DNA of 64,000 nucleotides from Kiritimatiellia bacterium. GTDB lineage: Bacteria > Verrucomicrobiota > Kiritimatiellia > RFP12 > DVOR01. The stretch is from positions 1 to 64,000 of the forward strand of contig JAFYWN010000032.1 in NCBI GenBank assembly GCA_017558005.1. The letters are read 5' to 3'. The position numbers and the translations under genes were made by a program. This document shows positions 53,481 to 63,538 of the stretch, piece after piece (within the stretch, counting starts at the first letter, position 1; every line of letters starts with the position of its first letter). Under the pieces are notes generated by a model. It was not told where the DNA came from. It did not search any database and worked only from the letters and a program-made list of their open reading frames with translations.

Positions 53481-53642
53481 ATGATTGCCACCCCTGTGGA
53501 CGCAAGCGCGTGTTTCTGCGAAGCCTATAAGCGCCTATGCCGTTGGCTTGGCATTCCCGGTCCTAAAGACTATGATGCATGTGCGAGTTGCACGCCTCCA
53601 TACGCACTGCGACGCTCCTTCTTTTTCTTCTTAAGGGGCTGA
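53481..53642 (+). CDS. Possible 53-aa Cys-rich peptide
   Basis: A short frame encodes a peptide with CFCEAYKRLCRWLGIP and DYDACASCTPPYALRR, ending in a Phe-rich tail. There is no obvious ribosome site and no known family. It may be a remnant of a gene. Nothing else is seen in the 53395-53716 spacer except the ankyrin gene terminator. Confidence 0.25.
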   Translation: MIATPVDASACFCEAYKRLCRWLGIPGPKDYDACASCTPPYALRRSFFFFLRG

Positions 53643-53654
53643 ATATCCCTTAAT

Positions 53655-53694
53655 AAAAAACCTACAGCAGCCGTGGGGATGACTGCTGTAGGTT
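53655..53694 (-). terminator. Terminator of the ankyrin gene
   Basis: On the - strand AACCTACAGCAG pairs with CTGCTGTAGGTT, followed by TTTTTATT. Confidence 0.92.
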
Positions 53695-53716
53695 AATCAC
53701 TGAGCAATGGTTCGGC

Positions 53717-54673
53717 TTACTTGCGCTGCATCAACCATGCCTCTGCCTGCTTTGCTTGATACCGCTTCGCCACCTCAAGTGCTGTCTTCCACTTCGAAGT
53801 AGGCTCGTTTATTTTTGCGCCATGCTTAAGTAGTAGTTCCATCAATGCCACATCATTCATCGCCACCGCTGTATAAAAAGCCGTCAACCCATTCTGCGGC
53901 ACTGCATTTACATCCACACCCTTTTTCAACAACGTCGTGATGAGTTCTATGGCATTCTCCAACTCCATTGCAAGCATCAGCGTGGTAGCCCCCGACTTTG
54001 CCCACTTCACCTTCACGTCCGCGCCCATTGAAACGAGTGCTCTCGCTGTATTCACATTCGCCCGCTCTAACGCAATCTGCAAAGCCGTCTCCCCGGTGGG
54101 GACGCGTGCATTGACATCAGCACCAGCCTTCACCAAATGCTCCACACATCCACCTGCCCCATCCCATGCGGCATGATGCAACGGCATCCAGCCTTGCTCA
54201 TCCTTTGCAGAAGGATCTGCGCCATAACGCAATAACGTCTTCGTGCTAAAGACCTCACGCCCCTGAATAGCATAATGCAACGCCGTTAACTGTTGCTTAC
54301 AACGCACATTTGGATTTGCCCCCGCCTCTAACAATGCCTGAAGAATGACATCATGCCCATAGCTTGCGGCAATCGCCAACATCGTTCGTTCCATCTCATC
54401 CAAACGATTGAGACCACCCTTCGGCACAAGTAATTCACCCCCCTGCGCCGTTTCCGTTAAGCCACCCACACCATAACGTTGATACGCACGCGCCACGCCA
54501 CGTTGTTTGGCATCAGACGTTACCACCGCTGTGCCATCCTCCAAAACAAATGTCACATCCCCGGCCCAAATAAACGGCTTATCCGTGTACCTAATCGATA
54601 CAGACGGAGCCGCCTGCACCGCAAATCCCAACCCCAAGCCTACAATCAAAGTAAACATCATCCGTTTCATCAT
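53717..54673 (-). CDS. Secreted ankyrin-repeat protein
   Basis: This 318-aa protein has a signal peptide (MMFTLIVGLGLGFAVQAA) and about six ankyrin repeats between residues ~85 and 315, for example QLTALHYAIQGREVFSTKTL, GWMPLHHAAWDGAG, GETALQIALERANV and GLTAFYTAVAMND. Such proteins bind other proteins, here outside the inner membrane. GGAGG is only 3 bases from the first ATG, so translation may begin at the second (54670). Confidence 0.85.
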   Translation of the reverse strand: MMKRMMFTLIVGLGLGFAVQAAPSVSIRYTDKPFIWAGDVTFVLEDGTAVVTSDAKQRGVARAYQRYGVGGLTETAQGGELLVPKGGLNRLDEMERTMLAIAASYGHDVILQALLEAGANPNVRCKQQLTALHYAIQGREVFSTKTLLRYGADPSAKDEQGWMPLHHAAWDGAGGCVEHLVKAGADVNARVPTGETALQIALERANVNTARALVSMGADVKVKWAKSGATTLMLAMELENAIELITTLLKKGVDVNAVPQNGLTAFYTAVAMNDVALMELLLKHGAKINEPTSKWKTALEVAKRYQAKQAEAWLMQRK

Positions 54674-54693
54674 AAACCTCCGTTCAAAAACAA

Positions 54694-54990
54694 TTAATCA
54701 CGCTGCCCGCCCAGGGCTTTTAGGAAACAACGTACAGATAAACCGTACATCCCAAGTAAAACGAGGACACCGCAGCCCCCCGTAAGATCATTAACGAGAT
54801 TATACAACTCAATATGATCACACTCACAGTCGTAAGGATCATCATATGGCGGGACCAATCTGGCCACCACGTCGTCAACGCATCACTTGTAGTCAGCAGT
54901 TGTAGGCAGCAGTACTAGCAGTGCTAATAAGGCAAAAAACACCGCTAACCCCAACAACAAAATCCTAACGAAAATCTTCAAGAACAACAT
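54694..54990 (-). CDS. Small Cys-containing membrane protein with in-frame UGA
   Basis: From 54990, after AAGGAAGGAG, a frame encodes a hydrophobic helix and reaches TGA at 54883-54885 (35 residues). The same frame then continues open for 62 codons to TAA at 54694. That second part is protein-like: DDVVARLVPPYDDPYDCECD, IELYNLVNDLTGGCGVLVLL and a basic end. Either the gene was broken by a nonsense change, or the UGA is read through, or two peptides are made. No ATG starts the second part at a useful place; GTG at 54870 is possible. Confidence 0.5.
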
Positions 54991-55006
54991 CTCAAATTCT
55001 CCTTCC

Positions 55007-55213
55007 TTATGGTAAATTCACCCACGGCTTATAGTGATTTTGAACGCAACGACACTTCAAAAACGCATGCGACGGCGCTGGATAGAATGGACACCGTTGC
55101 GCACTTCCTTCGCAACGCAATCGCCGCCCGTATTCTACCAAAACGCGCTCACCACTCCAATGTTGACACGTGCCACAACACTGCGCCGGCAATGTGATAT
55201 ACCGATCCGACAT
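55007..55213 (-). CDS. Small Cys-rich zinc-finger-like protein
   Basis: This 68-aa protein has CCGTCQHWSGE near its start, followed by single Cys and CRCVQNHY, a pattern expected for a zinc-binding fold. It is unknown. The start at 55213 follows AAAGGAATTGG; a longer frame from 55255 lacks a ribosome site. It belongs to the small-gene cassette. Confidence 0.65.
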   Translation of the reverse strand: MSDRYITLPAQCCGTCQHWSGERVLVEYGRRLRCEGSAQRCPFYPAPSHAFLKCRCVQNHYKPWVNLP

Positions 55214-55229
55214 AATCCAATTCCTTTCG

Positions 55230-55340
55230 TTAAAAATAATTCGCTTCCACATCATTAACGTAACAAGCGCATTTCAATCCCATCGCTGCGATACAAAGGC
55301 TCAGCCACTTCAGCCCTGTTCTCAATTTATCACTCGACAT
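55230..55340 (-). CDS. Possible 36-aa peptide
   Basis: A short frame starts at 55340, 16 bases after the DUF3825 gene stop, with GAAAGGA upstream. It encodes MSSDKLRTGLKWLSLCIAA followed by a Cys-containing tail, perhaps a short membrane helix. It ends 16 bases before the next gene start, which fits a compact operon, but no homology supports it. Confidence 0.4.
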   Translation of the reverse strand: MSSDKLRTGLKWLSLCIAAMGLKCACYVNDVEANYF

Positions 55341-55356
55341 TATGCTGCCTATCCTT

Positions 55357-56994
55357 TCAAGTCAACACGTTAGCACCTAAGCACAAGCCTTCTGGTCGGT
55401 TCTTTATGCTTCGAACCTCAGCAAAAAAGGTATTTTCCCAAACAGAATCTTCTTGCGGTGTAATCACACGAGAATTGTAATACGCCATAGAAGGCGTCAA
55501 CATCGTTGGAGCCTCATAGCCCACCTCTTCATTATCCACAAGTACCAAATAAAAGTTGGGGACCTCGCTATTATCTAGACACAACGGTAATTGCAGCGTA
55601 ATCTTTCCATGATAATATCCAGGAATTACGCATCGATAATTCGCCTGCACCTTTTTACGTGCGACCTCAACAGCATTAATAATCTCCTGGTATAAAAGGG
55701 TCGTGTTTAAAATGCGCATCCCATCTACCGTAAGGAAAAATCTTGGTGAAAATCGTGATTCGTCCACTTCATTTAAGATGTGCTTGAAATTGATTCGCCC
55801 CTCCAAACCACGCAAACGCTTGTATTGACAAATCAACTCCTCCGGTTTCCGTGTCCAATTGGGTGGATAAGGCAATCCGTAATTACTATCCGAAGACAAT
55901 GGCGGCAATCGCTCGTCTCGCCCATTTACATAATCATTCTCAACCCACTCAATTTTATTGAATCTCCCGCCGACATCTCTCTCACTACACACTGCGTAAA
56001 TGTAGTTCCCGCTCTTTTTTCCTTGAAGCCCAGTGCAGAAGCACAGTTTGTCATCATAATAAGTCAACGAATTCGTAGACTTTCCCATTAAACCTTTTGG
56101 CTTCCCATTTCCCAATTCATAAGGGTCTGATGAATTTTGATCATCATGTAAACGCGTAAAAACGTTCATCAAGTAATTCCCCAACGCCCCGTTTTTCACG
56201 ACTAACTCTTCTCCCACATAATAATCCCATTTGCACGGAGCTACTTCATCTTGCGCCATCTCAATTAATGATTCAAGGCGCTCCTCGTTCTCAAAAAAAC
56301 CAATTGGGAACACTTGATAAACTTTGGGGCAACGTGGATGTTTGAGTAATTGTGCTTCATCTAAAACAACTCCGCATTCATTTTCCTTTTTTACCTGCAG
56401 TACTATTGTTGCATCCTCCGTATACTTATCCGAAGTAATAACCCAACACTTCTCCCACACATACGATTTATACAATTCCTTTTCTACGACCTTTCGCGTC
56501 ATCCCTAAAATAGGGGCCAGCACTCGAGTCACCTCAAGCCAATTAACGATTGTGGGCATTGGGTAACAGGGATACATCCCGTCATCACCCTCTTTTTGTG
56601 CATAGAAATCATATGTTGCTCGATATCGATAACCGCCCTTTTCTTCTTGTGGTACGATTCGTAAATTCAAATAAATTTGAACATTCTCCACCTCAAACTT
56701 ATTCCTATTTAAGCACAACCCTGTGTCAAACATAATTTCACAAGGCGCAAAGCGTAGCGCATTGAGGAAGCCTCGCACATCCAGAAAACTATCTGTTTCC
56801 TTCCTGTAAATACCTAATGTCTCCCCACCCACACCCGACAATTGAGCTTCAATCCGCTTGTTAAACGCATTCGAATTAAAATTCCCCGCCAAAGCTCTTA
56901 GCTGCGCAAATAAGTTTTGCGACTCAATGAATACCTTCTTTTGGCTGAAAAAGCCACCCTTTTTAGACTCTACTCGTAAACATTTAGTTTTCAT
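55357..56994 (-). CDS. DUF3825 domain protein, putative RNA-metabolism protein
   Basis: This 545-aa protein has in its second half the DUF3825 pattern: WDYYVGEELVVKNGALGNYL, DKLCFCTGLQG, IYAVCSE, WTRKPEELICQYKRL, and the closing LQLPLCLDNSEVPNFYLVLV then MLTPSMAYYNSRVI. The first half has no recognised domain. DUF3825 proteins are found with NYN nucleases and OST-HTH domains and are thought to act on RNA. AAGGAG precedes the start at 56994. It sits in the same cassette as the S1-NYN gene. Confidence 0.75.
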   Translation of the reverse strand: MKTKCLRVESKKGGFFSQKKVFIESQNLFAQLRALAGNFNSNAFNKRIEAQLSGVGGETLGIYRKETDSFLDVRGFLNALRFAPCEIMFDTGLCLNRNKFEVENVQIYLNLRIVPQEEKGGYRYRATYDFYAQKEGDDGMYPCYPMPTIVNWLEVTRVLAPILGMTRKVVEKELYKSYVWEKCWVITSDKYTEDATIVLQVKKENECGVVLDEAQLLKHPRCPKVYQVFPIGFFENEERLESLIEMAQDEVAPCKWDYYVGEELVVKNGALGNYLMNVFTRLHDDQNSSDPYELGNGKPKGLMGKSTNSLTYYDDKLCFCTGLQGKKSGNYIYAVCSERDVGGRFNKIEWVENDYVNGRDERLPPLSSDSNYGLPYPPNWTRKPEELICQYKRLRGLEGRINFKHILNEVDESRFSPRFFLTVDGMRILNTTLLYQEIINAVEVARKKVQANYRCVIPGYYHGKITLQLPLCLDNSEVPNFYLVLVDNEEVGYEAPTMLTPSMAYYNSRVITPQEDSVWENTFFAEVRSIKNRPEGLCLGANVLT

Positions 56995-57041
56995 GATAAA
57001 CTCCTTAAGATTTACAACATTGTTCAACATCTTCCACTCGT

Positions 57042-57404
57042 TTAGGACATCCAAACATCAACACGTTCACGCTTCCAATTAATGTCGCAACGCGCAAATT
57101 CAGGACTATAAAACGGGCCACCATCATCGTCATTGACATAAACATTTGCATCGTCATAGAACAACGGCTCGTCGTAGTCAGAGTCGTCCCAATCATAGTC
57201 CAACAAACCCTTTAACCTGTCAACCGTATACCCCTCATGATCATCCCCATCCTGCCAAAGCGTCAAAATGAGGTCATCATCATCTACGCGCCAACATTCA
57301 GGCTGAATCCACTTACCTCGATTACGCGTAGTAAAGCGTACCTTAAAATCATCGCAAGCATAGGGTAAGCGATCAAGCAACTCGTATAATTCACCAACTG
57401 TCAT
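57042..57404 (-). CDS. Small acidic protein of unknown function
   Basis: This 120-aa protein starts MTVGELYELLDRLPYACDDF, has many Asp and aromatic residues (DYDWDDSDYDEPLFYDDANVY) and ends with a short basic segment. The N-terminal helix pattern resembles small phage or immunity-type proteins, but no family is named. It lies 47 bases before the DUF3825 gene. Confidence 0.6.
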   Translation of the reverse strand: MTVGELYELLDRLPYACDDFKVRFTTRNRGKWIQPECWRVDDDDLILTLWQDGDDHEGYTVDRLKGLLDYDWDDSDYDEPLFYDDANVYVNDDDGGPFYSPEFARCDINWKRERVDVWMS

Positions 57405-57491
57405 CTCTCATCTCTCTTTCTTAAAACGTTTTAGTCTCACTTGTAAATCCTCTGCGAAAACCGTCATCGTCTCCGCAGAGGCATCAACTCC

Positions 57492-57620
57492 TTACGAATT
57501 GTAGTAATCAAACATTGGGCCTTCGTACCCGCACTGGTAACAAGCCACTTCGCAAGGTTCACCATAACCCATATCCATCAGCCAACGCCAACATGTTTTC
57601 GTCCCACACGGATTCTTCAT
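57492..57620 (-). CDS. 42-aa Cys-rich peptide
   Basis: A short frame with GAAAGGAAAAGG upstream encodes a Cys-rich peptide: KNPCGTKTCWRWLMDMGYGE, then CEVACYQCGYEG. The Cys spacing suits a zinc knuckle. It is compactly placed between the duplicated-domain gene and the acidic-protein gene. Confidence 0.55.
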   Translation of the reverse strand: MKNPCGTKTCWRWLMDMGYGEPCEVACYQCGYEGPMFDYYNS

Positions 57621-57665
57621 TGCCTTTTCCTTTCTAAACGAACCATAATCACCAAAAATAGACGC

Positions 57666-58448
57666 TCACGCATCAGGATTACTTGCAATCGCCTGCAAAT
57701 CTTCTGCGATCTCCGAAAGCGTCGACCGCACATATGCCGAATATTCCTCATCCGACATTTCGAACGGGTCTTCAACATCACGGGACACCCCAGAAGCACG
57801 TCGCTGTGCTACTTCAAGATGGGAAACCAGCCCCTGAACCAGATAATCTAATTCAAAGAGTACATCACACAGCTGCGTCTGCAACGACTTGAGCGCATCC
57901 TCAGATGCCATGCTACCCTTACGATGAAAGCTCCGGGAAATTACAGCACACGCACGAGAATCCCCACGCTTCTCGAAGAAACGCCAGGCATTCGTAACCG
58001 CCTTGCCAGCATGCCATGCGGAGTCAAGCCCGAGTTCATCGGCAAGCTCCGAGAAGGTCATGCGAGTGCGATTATTCCAGAGTACAATCGCAAGGTTCTT
58101 AATTGAGTAGTGTGTGTCAAGGCTCATAACTTTGTCTCCTATTTTTTCGCAAACTTTATTCACAACATTCTGCAACTTAACGGTGATTTCGCACATATCT
58201 GAAGGCATCCCTGCCCTCATTAAGTTGGTGTAACCACCCACCGAATCCGTGAAGGCTTGTGCAATTGCACTCGCTTCTTCATAACGCTCTTCGCCCAACA
58301 TTGCCTTATACGCAATTCCAACGCGGCGTCCCATCAATTTAGATTTATGACCCAACTCTGCTGCGAGCTCGTTAAAAGTCATCGTTTCACCATTCTGGTA
58401 GAGTTCCAACGCGATTTCTGCCACGCGTTCTTGCCAATCATTAGCCAT
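57666..58448 (-). CDS. Protein with internally duplicated helical domain
   Basis: This 260-aa protein holds two copies of a ~55-residue unit: IALELYQNGETMTFNELAAE...IAQAF and LAIVLWNNRTRMTFSELADE...ISRSF. Each looks like a winged or simple helix-turn-helix (MTFxELAxELG). The C terminus is acidic and helical. It may be a DNA- or RNA-binding protein. The start at 58448 is preferred because AAAGGAG touches the ATG at 58454. Confidence 0.6.
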   Translation of the reverse strand: MANDWQERVAEIALELYQNGETMTFNELAAELGHKSKLMGRRVGIAYKAMLGEERYEEASAIAQAFTDSVGGYTNLMRAGMPSDMCEITVKLQNVVNKVCEKIGDKVMSLDTHYSIKNLAIVLWNNRTRMTFSELADELGLDSAWHAGKAVTNAWRFFEKRGDSRACAVISRSFHRKGSMASEDALKSLQTQLCDVLFELDYLVQGLVSHLEVAQRRASGVSRDVEDPFEMSDEEYSAYVRSTLSEIAEDLQAIASNPDA

Positions 58449-58462
58449 TTCCATCTCCTTTC

Positions 58463-58777
58463 TTACATGTACACGTTACACCCACACTCTGGGCACGAAT
58501 CGTCATCTTCATCGGGATAAACCAACTCGCCGCAGTTACCGCACCAAACACGACCTACATCGCCATGCTCCTCCTCGTCATACTCCTCCTCGTCATCGCA
58601 GTATCGGGTTCGCCAATCATCCCCATACCGTTCTCTCATACAATCGTCACAAGTCCAAAGTACGCAACCACGTGAATCAAGGTCTACAAAATCCCCATCC
58701 TCAACAGAGGTCACGCACCAACCGTACTGCCCGCATTCAGAGCACGTCGTTTCTTGTTCGTCAAGCCAAATAGACAT
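58463..58777 (-). CDS. Acidic double zinc-ribbon protein, copy 1
   Basis: This 104-aa protein has four CxxC-type knuckles: CSECGQYGWC, CDDCMRERYG, CGNCGELVYPDEDD and CPECGCNVYM, with an Asp/Glu-rich stretch between. Two zinc ribbons are expected. It is almost identical to the next gene upstream, so it arose by recent tandem duplication. Function unknown. The second ATG (58777) fits the AAAGGAG spacing. Confidence 0.72.
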   Translation of the reverse strand: MSIWLDEQETTCSECGQYGWCVTSVEDGDFVDLDSRGCVLWTCDDCMRERYGDDWRTRYCDDEEEYDEEEHGDVGRVWCGNCGELVYPDEDDDSCPECGCNVYM

Positions 58778-58791
58778 TTCCATCTCCTTTC

Positions 58792-59106
58792 TTACATGTA
58801 CACGTTACACCCACACTCAGGGCACGTTTCATCGTCTTCGTCGGGATAAACCAACTCGCCGCAGTTACCGCACCAAACACGCCCCACGTCGCCATGCTCC
58901 TCCTCGTCATACTCCTCCTCGTCATCGCAGTATCGGGTTCGCCAATCATCCCCATACCGTTCTCTCATGCAGTCTTCACAGACCCAAATCACGCGGCCAC
59001 GTGAGTCAAGGTCTACAAAATCCCCATCCTCAACAGAGGTCACGCACCAACCGTACTGCCCGCATTCAGAGCACGTCGTTTCTTGTTCGTCAAGCCAAAT
59101 AGACAT
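58792..59106 (-). CDS. Acidic double zinc-ribbon protein, copy 2
   Basis: This 104-aa protein differs from copy 1 by only a handful of residues (for example RVIWVCEDC versus CVLWTCDDC). All four Cys pairs are kept. The upstream AAAGGAAACGG site differs slightly from that of copy 1. Confidence 0.72.
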   Translation of the reverse strand: MSIWLDEQETTCSECGQYGWCVTSVEDGDFVDLDSRGRVIWVCEDCMRERYGDDWRTRYCDDEEEYDEEEHGDVGRVWCGNCGELVYPDEDDETCPECGCNVYM

Positions 59107-59120
59107 TTCCGTTTCCTTTC

Positions 59121-59399
59121 TTACATGTACACGTTACAGCCACACACGGGGCACGAGTCGTCATCTTCATCAGGATAGACCCACTCGCCGCAGTTACCGC
59201 AGCAAACAAGGTCGTCGTCAGAATCATCATCCTCATCATCCGAGAGCACATACGCCTCTACACATTCATTGCAAAGCCACACGGGGCTTCCATCGCTGTG
59301 CACGTCATCATACAAACAGTCGGTCACGAAGGTGTAGCAGCGCGTCTCGCAGCCGCAGTTTTCACACGTTGTATACTTGTCATAACATCCATCTCTCAT
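59121..59399 (-). CDS. Acidic zinc-ribbon protein, third paralogue
   Basis: This 92-aa protein shares the C-terminal ribbon (CGNCGEWVYPDEDDDSCP and CGCNVYM) and the middle CNECVEAY with the two neighbours, but its N-terminal Cys pairs are spaced differently (CENCGCETRC). The first half has diverged, so it is an older copy. Confidence 0.7.
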   Translation of the reverse strand: MRDGCYDKYTTCENCGCETRCYTFVTDCLYDDVHSDGSPVWLCNECVEAYVLSDDEDDDSDDDLVCCGNCGEWVYPDEDDDSCPVCGCNVYM

Positions 59400-59467
59400 G
59401 GCATGCCCCTTTTTAGATTCTTACTCTGGTCACACATTCCGCAAAGGGTTATTCTTCACTTCTGTGC

Positions 59468-59487
59468 TGTCAACGGGGAATAGTAAA
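59468..59487 (-). promoter_or_regulatory. Shared 20-bp motif upstream of the zinc-ribbon genes
   Basis: On the - strand TTTACTATTCCCCGTTGACA matches 17 of 20 positions with the element at 60722-60741 before the S1-NYN gene. It lies about 70 bases before the start at 59399. Confidence 0.45.
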
Positions 59488-59574
59488 GCAAAGATTTGCC
59501 ACCTTCACTCCAAAACAGATATCCACAGACATCCACCCCTCTCTAATCCATTCACTATGCAGATCACCAGTCCA

Positions 59575-60231
59575 TTACGCACATTTACGGAAACGGCCAC
59601 CATGCTTTTGACGACGCTCTTGCTGCCATACGCGTTTCTGCGACTCACGTGCAACACGATCCAAGGTTGCGGACTTGCGGAAGTTCTTGGAAACTCGCAC
59701 GCCTTCTGCATAACACGTTGCCAACATCTCAAGTGCCTCAGGATCATGCGCCAAGGCCTTTCGATAGACCTTGAACATCGACACCGCATGCTCAACTGCG
59801 CGTGCAGTTACGGGTGTTGCCTGACGTTCTTCAATACATGCCAACTCTGGCGCGAGTTCGGGCTCAACCGTTACTGCAGGCTCCAATTTACGCAACTGGA
59901 TCGGCGCCTTCAAACCTATCACAAACAACATCGGCGTCGGCTTAGCGAAGACTGAAAACGTATGCAACCGTTGCGTTCCGACCAGTTGAGGAAACGCGTT
60001 AGCATAGTCTCTAAATTTATCATTTGAGAGTGCAACAGCATGTGCATTTGCCGCGGTCAACTGCAACACCGAAAAATCAGCCTCTCCCTGAGTACGGCAG
60101 ACCTTTTCCATGCAAAAAGTTGCAAAGCCTTCGCGCTCCGCATCCACTTTATAATTGTAGTAGACACTCCAATAGACGCGTTCATCCATGAAGAAGGCGA
60201 CCTCGTGGCCAGCCTCAGTAAGGTCTGCATC
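59575..60231 (-). CDS. NYN-type ribonuclease domain, downstream part of frameshifted S1-NYN gene
   Basis: In this frame the codons from 60231 encode DADLTEAGHEVAFFMDERVYW, then TQGEADFSVLQLTAANAHAV and LSNDKFRDYANAFP, followed by a helical C terminus. The acidic residues in FFMDE, GEADF and SNDKFRDY, with VVVDAANV in the upstream frame, make up the catalytic set of Zc3h12a-like NYN/PIN ribonucleases. A +1 shift near 60231-60232 joins it to the S1-domain frame. The joint protein would have about 365 residues. Confidence 0.75.
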   Translation of the reverse strand, partial: DADLTEAGHEVAFFMDERVYWSVYYNYKVDAEREGFATFCMEKVCRTQGEADFSVLQLTAANAHAVALSNDKFRDYANAFPQLVGTQRLHTFSVFAKPTPMLFVIGLKAPIQLRKLEPAVTVEPELAPELACIEERQATPVTARAVEHAVSMFKVYRKALAHDPEALEMLATCYAEGVRVSKNFRKSATLDRVARESQKRVWQQERRQKHGGRFRKCA

Positions 60232-60679
60232 CAACGGACGACAATACATCCCATGCGGAGAATTCAAGCGCAAACTTCTGCGCCAAGCCAACCACATTCG
60301 CGGCGTCTACCACAACCAATGTTCCAGGTGCAAGCAACTGCTTCTGCGGCTTGCTGTGCTTCACCTTCTTATAATGCTTCACCATAGCAGTAGCCGACGA
60401 GGCAAACGCTAACACTAACTGGCGAGCGGCTTCGTAGTAAGCACACACCTTGACCTTTACCTGCTGTCCAGGCTGGTACTGCATCACCGCACAACGGCGT
60501 TCATCGGCAGTTTTGCCAAAGCAAGAAGCCTTGATCATCCCCGCGATCTTTTCATCAAGTGTCTCCACGAACACGCCACAGGCATTCATTGATTTCACCG
60601 TCGCGGTAATGACCATGCCCGGAGTAAACGTAATTTCGGAAGCGGTTGCGGAAGTATTCAACGTTATCATAGTGTCCAT
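60215..60679 (-). CDS. S1-domain protein with start of NYN nuclease (upstream part)
   Basis: This 154-aa frame contains an S1 RNA-binding domain (ITFTPGMVITATVKSMNACG to VKVKVCAYYEAARQLVLAF), a Lys-rich linker, and the first strand of a NYN nuclease (TLVVVDAANVVGLAQK). It then stops early at 60215. The nuclease continues in the +1 frame. GAAAGG lies directly before the ATG at 60679, so translation may begin at the second ATG (60670). Confidence 0.72.
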   Translation of the reverse strand: MDTMITLNTSATASEITFTPGMVITATVKSMNACGVFVETLDEKIAGMIKASCFGKTADERRCAVMQYQPGQQVKVKVCAYYEAARQLVLAFASSATAMVKHYKKVKHSKPQKQLLAPGTLVVVDAANVVGLAQKFALEFSAWDVLSSVGCRPY

Positions 60680-60721
60680 CCTTTCAGATTACTGCTCTTT
60701 GTTTTCACTCGCCCTTTGCGG

Positions 60722-60741
60722 TGTCAACAAGGCATAGTAAA
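60722..60741 (-). promoter_or_regulatory. Shared 20-bp motif upstream of the S1-NYN gene
   Basis: On the - strand TTTACTATGCCTTGTTGACA is the partner of the motif at 59468-59487. It lies about 43 bases before the start at 60679. Confidence 0.45.
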
Positions 60742-60874
60742 CCACAGTTGAGGCGAATGATTGTTTACACAGTAATCCGTTGGATATCTGCCAAGAAATT
60801 GTGACGAAAAAGCAACCTCTATCTCGCTGAATTACCCACACAACAAACGTATTCCCTACACACTTTACTCCATT

Positions 60875-60902
60875 TAAAAACGCTACATCCGAAGATGTAG
60901 CG
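60875..60902 (-). terminator. Terminator downstream of the CRISPR array (- strand)
   Basis: On the - strand CGCTACATC pairs with GATGTAGCG around a TTCG loop, followed by TTTTT. It would end transcription coming from the array. Confidence 0.85.
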
Positions 60903-60987
60903 CGTCATAAACATCCCAACACCCATCCCTTTCACTCCACTTGAGATATGCAGGGATTGAGCTTGAATGCCGTTTGCACTCTCCGTT

Positions 60988-61534
60988 GTCTCAATAGCCT
61001 CTCAACACGCACTCTACTTGCCACATTATCGTCCCCCTTGCCCACCGCGGCAAAGGGGGCCTTTCGACTGTCAGTCCACTTGGGACTTGAATTCATGAAA
61101 GTGGCAGTGCCTGCTTACAACGCGGTGTCTCAATAGCCTTTCGGCTGTCAGTCCACTTGGGACAAGTTGGAAGTGAATTATATGGGTCGGGATAAGGGGT
61201 CTCAATAGCCTTTCGGCTGTCAGTCCACTTGGGACAAGTTGGAAGTGAATTATATGGGTCGGGATAAGGGGTCTCAATAGCCTTTCGGCTGTCAGTCCAC
61301 TTGGGACACTCAAAAAGTTGGAGTTAATCATGCCACCTCCCAAAGGTCTCAATAGCCTTTCGGCTGTCAGTCCACTTGGGACGACGCAGCGATCCTGTGC
61401 CGGCCGGGGGACGCATACGATGTCTCAATAGCCTTTCGGCTGTCAGTCCACTTGGGACACGCCGGGAGAAGGCCCTCGCGCCGAAGCCTTGGCGCATGTC
61501 TCAATAGCCTTTCGGCTGTCAGTCCACTTGGGAC
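60988..61534 (-). CRISPR. CRISPR array, 7 repeats, 6 spacers, no cas genes in window
   Basis: Six identical 37-bp repeats (GTCTCAATAGCC...CCACTTGGGAC on the + strand) start at 61127, 61199, 61271, 61346, 61422 and 61498. A seventh at 60988-61086 is degenerate and split. Spacers are 35-40 bp; those at 61164-61198 and 61236-61270 are identical. Read on the - strand the repeat ends ATTGAGAC, like the 5' handle of type I and III crRNAs, and forms an AGCC-GAAA-GGCT hairpin. The degenerate repeat is then at the trailer end, and the leader lies right of 61534. Confidence 0.93.
61025..61060. repeat. REP-like palindrome inside the terminal CRISPR repeat
   Basis: ATTATCGTCCCCCTTGCCCA and the following GCGGCAAAGGGGGC form a hairpin closely resembling the elements at 34587, 34621 and 34784. 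It interrupts the first repeat between GTCTCAATAGCCT and CTTTCGACTGTC. Confidence 0.65.
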
Positions 61535-62030
61535 TGTACCACTTTTAATCATTGAAAGTCAATGACTTATTTAGTGATTTTGGCGGGACGCTCATTTCAC
61601 CTCCTCATTTTTAGACCAGACTAACACCCCTTGCAAGCATTCTATTTAGCATAACCTATTGAAATAACAACACCTTACGTCATTTGACGGGACTCCCCCA
61701 TTTTTTAACCTTTTCGAGTCCCGTCAAAAATATGTCGAAATAGGGCCCTCGTACATGAGTGTGAGTCAAATTTAGCATCACAACATTCTCTGAGCCCTTA
61801 TCTTTAGGCGTTTACACACAATTCCTTAGTCGTGGAATTTCATTTGAAAATAGAAAAGTATTACAAAGCTGATCAGGATGTTCATGTTGAGATGAGTTGC
61901 AAACATGCGCCCACCCATCTAGCCAACTTTTGAGGACGTTGACCAGTCAAACGCATATTCACAACTCAACTTTCTCTTCTCTTGTTAAACAGTCCCTTAC
62001 GCCCCACACTTATGCACAAAGCCCCAAAAT
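61535..62030. other. CRISPR leader region and spacer
   Basis: AT-rich stretch adjoining the first repeat. It holds a TCATTG/CAATGA dyad (61549-61565), a 16-codon micro-ORF on the - strand (61545-61595) with GAGGAGGTG upstream, and a 13-bp perfect inverted repeat (61683-61695 and 61716-61728). No cas gene is present. Confidence 0.55.
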
Positions 62031-62720
62031 TTATGTCAAGTCTTCAAACCAATTGGCACACTGTTGACAGTGCTCGACAAACTCTCCAAAATTAGTATTC
62101 GGTGACAGAAACTTACCAGAAGGATGACACCAATCAATTACGATGCGTTCATTCACAGAATCCCACACAGGCTCACTTTGCGAACCGCATGGAATATCAC
62201 CATCACAAATATAGCGTGCGTAAATATCGTATGTCCCGCAGCAAACAATCACATTAGGATCACAAAGATCAATTTGTTCATTTAAATAATCTCTGTCGCG
62301 ACGAGCGAACCCCCTTAGCACCGGATAGCCTACACTTGAACACCCCAGCTCTTTTTTAATGTTCACATAGGCCACGTTATCGAGCGAATACCCTCCATCG
62401 TTATGACCTTCGTAGAATTCATCTTTGTCTGGCTCATCACCACTCGCAAGACGACCAATGACATATGTCCACATCCCTAGCATCCGCCAAAATTTCCAAG
62501 AGTTTGGCTTACAACTTCCTCCACGCGACGTGAAATCACCACCCCGAACCCAGTAAAAATCATCCCACGAATCTTTCAATAAGAAAAGAATTCGCACATT
62601 CGATTCAAAGTATCTCTCTGAATCACTATTGATAATCCCATCGTGACAGAAGGAGTCGTAACAACGATCCGCTTTCCAGCGTTCATCTAGTTCGTTCGCC
62701 TCATCTGCATAATCACTCAT
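62031..62720 (-). CDS. Uracil-DNA glycosylase superfamily-like protein
   Basis: This 229-aa protein has the general pattern of UDG-superfamily members of unknown role: VRILFLLKDSWDD as the first strand and loop, NVAYVNIKKELG in the middle, LCDPNVIVCCG strand and WCHPSGKFL in the place of the HPS motif. The catalytic Asp/Asn set is not clear, so activity is uncertain. It follows a 40-aa gene by 13 bases with AAAGGAGAG before its ATG. Confidence 0.6.
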   Translation of the reverse strand: MSDYADEANELDERWKADRCYDSFCHDGIINSDSERYFESNVRILFLLKDSWDDFYWVRGGDFTSRGGSCKPNSWKFWRMLGMWTYVIGRLASGDEPDKDEFYEGHNDGGYSLDNVAYVNIKKELGCSSVGYPVLRGFARRDRDYLNEQIDLCDPNVIVCCGTYDIYARYICDGDIPCGSQSEPVWDSVNERIVIDWCHPSGKFLSPNTNFGEFVEHCQQCANWFEDLT

Positions 62721-62733
62721 TTCATCTCTCCTT

Positions 62734-62856
62734 TCAAAGCAATTCTAAAAATAACTCACGCTCTTTCCATCCCTCGACGGAATACTGTCCAGGACATCCA
62801 TTAATCCTAATACGCCCTATACCATTCTCAGCAATTCCCATATCCATCTTGTACAT
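62734..62856 (-). CDS. 40-aa peptide upstream of the UDG-like gene
   Basis: A short frame with GAAGGAAGAGG upstream encodes a peptide containing GIAENGIGRIRINGCPGQYS and a Glu/Leu-rich end. It lies 13 bases before the UDG-like gene and was probably co-transcribed with it. No family is recognised. Confidence 0.55.
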   Translation of the reverse strand: MYKMDMGIAENGIGRIRINGCPGQYSVEGWKERELFLELL

Positions 62857-63006
62857 CCTCTTCCTTCTCAAAGACACGAAAAAGGCGTGTCTCTTGTTAT
62901 TGAAACTCTCTGGAACGAAAAATACGCGTTAACGCATCTTTTAGTGCGTCTGAGAGGTGGTGAGAGGGCGCATCACGTCTTCACCCCAATCAAACTATGT
63001 ATCTAT

Positions 63007-63035
63007 AGCATACTCCCCTCTACATAAGATTGCAA
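63007..63035 (-). promoter_or_regulatory. Promoter of the UDG-like operon
   Basis: On the - strand TTGCAA, a 17-base spacer and TATGCT. Confidence 0.5.
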
Positions 63036-63259
63036 GCCATTTTTAAGATATCGGCAGGCGGCGTAGCCGTAGGCCAAATAGGACCGCGTGAGAAGCGACG
63101 GGGCTAAACATGGACTACAGCGAAAAGTGGCGGGGCGATTGTTTAGCAGGGGGCCGCGCTGACAGCACCCGTCCGTTCATCAAGCGCAACGCGCATTGGC
63201 TCACATCGCGCATCATTCCGAGTTCTCCTCCTTTCCCCAATTCTTCCCTCTTCTCTGCC

Positions 63260-63388
63260 AAACCCAATGGGTTTGAGTTTGAAACCCAATGGGTTTGAGT
63301 TTGAAACCCAATGGATTTGACTTTGAAATCCAATGGATTTGAGTTTGAAATCCAATGGATTTGAGTTTGAGATCCATTGGATTTGAGG
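63260..63388. repeat. 22-bp dyad tandem repeats (about 6 units)
   Basis: Units of the form AAAyCCAATGGrTTTGAGTT plus TG repeat every 22 bp. Each unit contains a near-perfect dyad, and units differ by paired changes (CCCAATGGG to TCCAATGGA) that keep the dyad. Confidence 0.88.
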
Positions 63389-63538
63389 AGGCACTGAAGC
63401 GGTTCTGTGTGTTTTAAAGGGCTCTATCGCGGCGCGTAAGGGCAACTTGTTTGGTGAAGGGCCGAGCATTTTTCTGTGTCTAATGCCTTAGTGCTTCTGC
63501 CTCTCCCTTTTTAACCCAACATGAGCGAGGGGATTTTA

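Follow-up and report, generated by a model that had tools for sequence, protein, structure and literature searches.

A one-directional cassette around a frame-shifted S1-NYN gene next to an orphan CRISPR array of a Kiritimatiellia genome: a possible RNA-targeting defence or RNA-surveillance system

The window, meaning the whole 64,000-nt stretch of DNA analysed here, is contig C36:1-64000 of a Kiritimatiellia genome (G000) represented by a 2.05-Mb assembly of about 90% completeness. On its minus strand, 12 genes or candidate genes run from 60679 to 53717 with gaps of 8 to 175 nt, mostly preceded by good AGGAG-type start sites. A sequence-only reading of this DNA had described a one-directional run of at least eleven small genes on one strand with short gaps; that description holds, and the run is slightly longer than claimed, extending past its earlier limit into an ankyrin-repeat gene (53717-54673). 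The features, in the direction of the cassette, are as follows.

61127-61534, minus strand: CRISPR array, six 37-nt repeats plus degenerate copies
60880-60903, minus strand: intrinsic terminator between array and cassette (10-pair stem, TTCG loop, T tail)
60717-60741, minus strand: leader motif TTTACTATGCCTTGTTGACACCGCA ahead of the S1-NYN gene (whole-assembly pattern search)
59575-60679, minus strand: frame-shifted gene for a putative S1-NYN(-Sel1-like tail) ribonuclease (S1 match; intact G002 homologue)
59463-59487, minus strand: second copy of the leader motif, ahead of ZnR1 (whole-assembly pattern search)
59121-59399, minus strand: ZnR1, 92-aa acidic zinc-ribbon protein (ORF, duplication, codon statistics)
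58792-59106, minus strand: ZnR2, 104-aa acidic zinc-ribbon protein (Zn_ribbon_3, E 2.1e-5, under the curated cut-off)
58463-58783, minus strand: ZnR3, tandem duplicate of ZnR2 (93% nucleotide identity)
57666-58454, minus strand: duplicated HTH protein, 262 aa (two profile domains)
57492-57620, minus strand: 42-aa Cys-rich peptide (ORF)
57042-57404, minus strand: 120-aa acidic protein (ORF, codon statistics)
55357-56994, minus strand: DUF3825 protein (start taken at 56994, which has AAGGAG, rather than at the TTG at 57054)
55007-55255, minus strand: 82-aa Cys-containing ORF, doubtful as a gene (negative codon score)
54883-54990, minus strand: 35-aa hydrophobic peptide ORF
54694-54870, minus strand: 58-aa ORF with GTG start, uncertain (ORF, codon statistics)
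53717-54673, minus strand: ankyrin-repeat protein, last gene of the run (Ank_2, E 3.4e-58; 20-nt gap)
53659-53694, minus strand: terminator closing the run after the ankyrin gene (strong 14-pair stem, T tail)

Codon statistics support the annotated frame of the S1 and NYN parts, ZnR1, the HTH and acidic proteins, DUF3825 and the ankyrin gene; ZnR2, ZnR3, the Cys peptide and the 35- and 58-aa ORFs gave a weak or ambiguous signal, and the 82-aa ORF a contrary one. No PADLOC defence-system model matched the cassette, the sole match being to Csn2 at chance level (E 0.038), and PADLOC, PHROGs and NCBIfam were uninformative on its proteins except for a phage family overlapping DUF3825. Rfam gave no match within 53500-63500, and the cassette genes include no McrB/McrC homologues with coiled coils and a HEPN or other RNase, the core of CoCoNuT systems.

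The leading gene had been read as an S1-NYN nuclease. Both domains are present, the S1 domain by Pfam (PF00575, E 1.8e-5), but no single intact frame joins them: the gene consists of two overlapping ORFs in different frames, 60215-60679 and 59575-60297, with the break near 60,240. The first carries S1, reaches the first NYN catalytic motif (VVVDAANV) and then leaves the NYN domain; the second carries the remainder, including the GEAD and SNDKFRDY motifs, and the clustered catalytic aspartates typical of NYN domains are thereby split over two frames. Alignment to the single intact 361-aa protein of a congener, G002, places the frame change near 60232-60247, inside the NYN domain; intact copies occur in several relatives. 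Either the nuclease has been lost in this genome or the assembly contains a local error. A programmed frameshift is unlikely, there being no stop or slow-codon signal at the break and no shift in the intact relatives. Widespread assembly indels were also considered, but there is no sign of them: a seemingly truncated RNase III gene of this contig turned out, when inspected, to be whole. A local error at the break is still conceivable.

The acidic positions expected of an NYN nuclease (D of DxAN, E and D of EAD, D of SxDxF and D of DY) are invariant in the aligned members of the family. The G002 protein gave a weak match to the Zc3h12a-type NYN domain (E 0.0095), and against solved structures a profile search reached the NYN domain of KHNYN at E 2 only. 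In a fold search with its AlphaFold model (mean pLDDT 76), all matches up to E 0.001 were to S1-domain proteins and the NYN part went unrecognised.

A 25-nt element, TTTACTATnCCnnGTTGACAnCnCA, has two matches in the whole G000 assembly, even with one mismatch allowed, and these lie ahead of S1-NYN and ZnR1; a similar element at a different spacing precedes the S1-NYN gene of G002. Because this leader is common to the two genes, it suggests that the cassette comprises two co-controlled units, S1-NYN and the genes from ZnR1 onward.

The tandem duplication and repeated AAAGGAG start sites reported from the sequence alone were both borne out, the latter because the zinc-ribbon genes are themselves tandemly duplicated: ZnR2 and ZnR3 share 300 nt at 93% identity, and ZnR1 is a third, more distant copy (83% over 140 nt). 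All score below curated Pfam cut-offs. The duplication suspected within the HTH-like protein is likewise genuine, with two copies of one domain recognised by profile (E 1.5e-4 and 4e-35), the second closely resembling single-HTH proteins in G086, G010, G118 and G143. The 120-aa acidic protein has no family match in Pfam or the other profile sets. The predicted DUF3825 protein was confirmed by PF12873 (E 4.9e-28; 98.8 bits against a curated cut-off of 27). Its homologue in G007 is 44% identical, its predicted structure is poor (pLDDT 43), and no OST-HTH domain was detected in DUF3825 proteins up to E 10; the open-licence texts that we searched make no mention of the family, and the tie to RNA metabolism that the sequence-only reading gave it found no confirmation. 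Elsewhere, a Listeria phage (next to AcrIIA1 and HNH genes) and plasmids carry DUF3825 on its own, and it adjoins GmrSD-type genes in G057, contexts consistent with a mobile, defence-related protein. In another genome (G008; L028:10732-14343) two DUF3825 proteins stand in tandem, one with repeated N-terminal modules to which no family was assigned.

Upstream of the cassette, the reported nearby CRISPR array is real, with its six 37-nt repeats at 61127-61534. Degenerate repeats at 60988-61095 are likely its trailer end, and since the repeat read on the minus strand ends in ...AGCCGAAAGGCTATTGAGAC, its most likely direction is toward the cassette. Profiles for cas1 and RAMP proteins found no match in this assembly of about 90% completeness, and the array appears to be an orphan. 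Between its repeat and that of a type III locus in G063, the 3' halves differ by a single base. Two adjacent spacers (61164-61270) are near-identical duplicates. Beyond the far end of the array lie a 229-aa protein (62031-62720) with a weak uracil-DNA-glycosylase-like match (E 0.0074) and, at 63238-63408, tandem 22-nt repeats that are partly palindromic (AAACCCAATGGGTTTGAGTTTG). Taken with the frame-shifted nuclease and the degenerate repeats, the absence of cas1 and RAMP matches makes the CRISPR end of the region look like one that is decaying in this genome; the ZnR-HTH-DUF3825-ankyrin part of the cassette is still open.

A profile search for S1-NYN across 346 genomes of the class, draft assemblies that are mostly MAGs, retrieved seven clear members, all of them from Kiritimatiellae gut MAGs of the host order, together with a cousin in G057 that has two S1-like regions. 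Searches of viral contigs and plasmids gave no S1-NYN match, and the viral contigs held no relatives of the window-type DUF3825. Two members, in G024 and G123, sit on short contigs. All five loci with usable context place S1-NYN beside either CRISPR components (the window, G002 and G063) or an RtcR-like activator (G061 and G086). In the window the array lies just upstream. In G002 the gene is followed downstream by DarT, a NADAR antitoxin, cas1 and cas2. In G063, one direction of transcription leads from RAMP genes through a Card1 CARF nuclease, a Cas_NE0113 CARF protein, S1-NYN and a small zinc ribbon to Cas1, Cas2 and an array, a locus that we call type III-B-like from its gene order.

The other two loci have a divergent sigma-54 activator beside S1-NYN. 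RtcR is the best model for these activators and the match extends into the N-terminal domain, with scores of 256-268 bits against an RtcR equivalog cut-off of 650. In both genomes a sigma-54-like site lies at -85/-86 before the S1-NYN operon and a second at -44 before a conserved gene for a 92-96-aa protein; none of 5000 mononucleotide shuffles of the two upstream stretches contained both sites. The canonical rtc operon of G000 carries a site of the same kind, a positive control for the pattern. That operon (L119, G000:C9:9000-22000) encodes RtcR, RtcA and RtcB, with extra AAA and functionally unassigned genes between RtcR and RtcA. The window cassette has no adjacent RtcR-like gene and no convincing -24/-12 site, the best upstream score being 8 of 12.

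Two further families accompany these islands. The 92-96-aa protein occurs in islands with S1-NYN or DUF3825 (L022:4466-4756, L118:1687-1965 and L077:6090-6470), the members at L022 and L118 being those with the site at -44; a by-eye likeness between this family and the C-terminus of the window's HTH protein failed on comparison. An FtsW/RodA-like membrane protein (26-33% identity) is found in three S1-NYN islands (L022:3423-4442, L118:556-1656 and L031:2383-3531).

Whether the gene set recurs bears directly on its standing as a system. In G086, from a different family of the order, S1-NYN, a single-HTH gene and DUF3825 share a stretch of roughly 5 kb, and a gene for a small acidic zinc ribbon lies within 10 kb. 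Among the 162 genomes of the order, DUF3825 is present in five and S1-NYN in seven, with two shared (chance 0.015); given presence, their location less than 5 kb apart in both G000 and G086 has a chance probability of about 1e-5, and it is in these two genomes only that DUF3825 is near S1-NYN. The zinc ribbon of G086, of an 'LFRHI' type, has strong matches in G063 and G086 only, near S1-NYN in each. In G118, an acidic zinc-ribbon ORF (L024:7768-7986) directly upstream of a single-HTH gene echoes the ZnR-HTH order of the window. The proximity of S1-NYN and DUF3825 to zinc-ribbon genes is therefore repeated in G086, but not with the window's own zinc-ribbon family, which, like the Cys peptide, the acidic protein and the tail ORFs, was found at no other locus examined. 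Parts of the set thus recur and the exact operon does not, a pattern as compatible with a defence island as with a dedicated system.

Our preferred reading, at a probability of roughly one half, takes the region as an accessory cassette for RNA-targeting defence or RNA surveillance, with a lineage-specific S1-NYN ribonuclease at its centre. Because S1-NYN repeatedly adjoins CRISPR or RtcR-like genes, an assignment to defence or RNA surveillance is reasonable, and the G086 cluster argues in the same direction; the sequence-only proposal is partly supported. Against it stand small genes that are not conserved, a DUF3825 pairing confined to two genomes and a nuclease that is frame-shifted. What the analysis shows directly is gene content, domains, recurrence, sigma-54-like sites and the frame break; cleavage of RNA, a part in defence, the signal coupling and the functions of the small proteins are inferred. 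Relatives with an intact gene would use S1 to deliver the NYN endoribonuclease to single-stranded RNA, which it may then cleave. The enzyme could be coupled to infection or RNA damage through a type III CRISPR locus, as in G063, or through adjacency to cas1-cas2, as in G002; alternatively, an RtcR-like protein may activate its own operon through sigma-54, as in G061 and G086. Both couplings are proposed from gene order and from published work on a CRISPR-associated NYN (PMC11346440) and on RtcR biology (PMC7790460, PMC9650030, PMC11090510). The HTH and small acidic zinc-ribbon proteins might act as regulatory or RNA-binding partners, and DUF3825 as a mobile cargo protein. More tentatively, and at clearly lower confidence, S1-NYN, HTH, DUF3825 and the small zinc ribbons may together make up a modular RNA-targeting immune system of Kiritimatiellae that has not been described before, in which the nuclease is connected to either type III CRISPR signalling or an RtcR-like, sigma-54-driven response to RNA damage.

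An ordinary defence island, in which S1-NYN, HTH, DUF3825 and zinc ribbons are independent cargo of shared hot spots, is a possible account, though we think it rather unlikely. It would explain why DUF3825 travels alone in phage and on plasmids and stands beside GmrSD in G057, why HTH genes occur without S1-NYN in G010, G118 and G143, and why the small genes of the window are not conserved; the uniform strand and short gaps, the leader motif common to two units, and the renewed clustering of S1-NYN, HTH, DUF3825 and a zinc ribbon in G086 argue against it. It is improbable that S1-NYN is instead a crRNA-processing enzyme of type III CRISPR, with the rest of the cassette unrelated. That role has been proposed for the NYN of Bacteroides fragilis type III-B, thought to trim crRNA (PMC11346440), and it would suit the position of S1-NYN within the G063 locus, where we noticed no Cas6 among the listed ORFs (an ORF listing rather than a profile search), and near cas1-cas2 in G002; the copies in G061 and G086 lie beside RtcR-like activators and away from cas genes, however, and there was no match to RAMP in G086 and none to RAMP or cas1 in the window genome. 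A housekeeping or stress RNA-turnover operon with an array nearby by chance is more improbable still: proteins of RNA metabolism often carry S1 and NYN domains and G000 has its canonical rtc RNA-repair operon elsewhere, but S1-NYN is patchy (7/162 genomes) and its CRISPR, CARF, DarT, GmrSD and TerY-P-like neighbours are not of a kind usual for housekeeping genes.

Published work already covers CRISPR-associated NYN RNases and RtcR-linked defence loci. The S1-NYN of G063 resembles the NYN ribonuclease of B. fragilis (Chi & White 2024, PMC11346440) in being encoded among type III effector genes and in its comparable conserved acidic residues, a likeness of residues and context; it differs in its fused S1 domain, in the Sel1-like tail of several members, in the family's presence beside RtcR-like activators away from cas genes, and in the frame-shifted state of the window copy. 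As in RtcR-regulated sigma-54 operons for RtcAB RNA repair (PMC7790460, PMC9650030, PMC4012209), G061 and G086 have a divergent RtcR-like activator opposite a sigma-54-like promoter, whereas the operon there carries S1-NYN in place of RtcA/RtcB, the activators score far below the RtcR cut-off, and the window cassette has no such regulator alongside. In the G061 locus a putative RNase is accompanied by an RtcR-like gene, an AAA ATPase (McrB-like by eye) and VWA, PP2C and kinase-like genes, recalling the type IV CoCoNuT RNA-targeting systems with RtcR homologues and TerY-P (PMC11090510); unlike those, it shows no McrC/HEPN core, and the window has none of these genes. Finally, LK-nuclease/NYN-type proteins fused to OST-HTH and S1/cold-shock OB folds (PMC2848206) likewise join a PIN-like RNase to an OB-fold RNA-binding domain, but belong to another family and neighbourhood, and no OST-HTH was detected in the cassette proteins. 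In the open-licence literature searched we found neither an S1-fused NYN family, nor its presence in both settings, nor its small-protein partners.

If the reading of a defence or RNA-surveillance cassette is correct, one nuclease family would serve two sensing pathways, forming a direct link between type III CRISPR and RtcR-like sensing of RNA damage. The proposed induction is open to test through the sigma-54-like sites and divergent activators, and the repeated neighbours, namely the HTH, zinc-ribbon, 92-96-aa, FtsW-like membrane and DUF3825 proteins, would provide first functional leads for families that are as yet unnamed.
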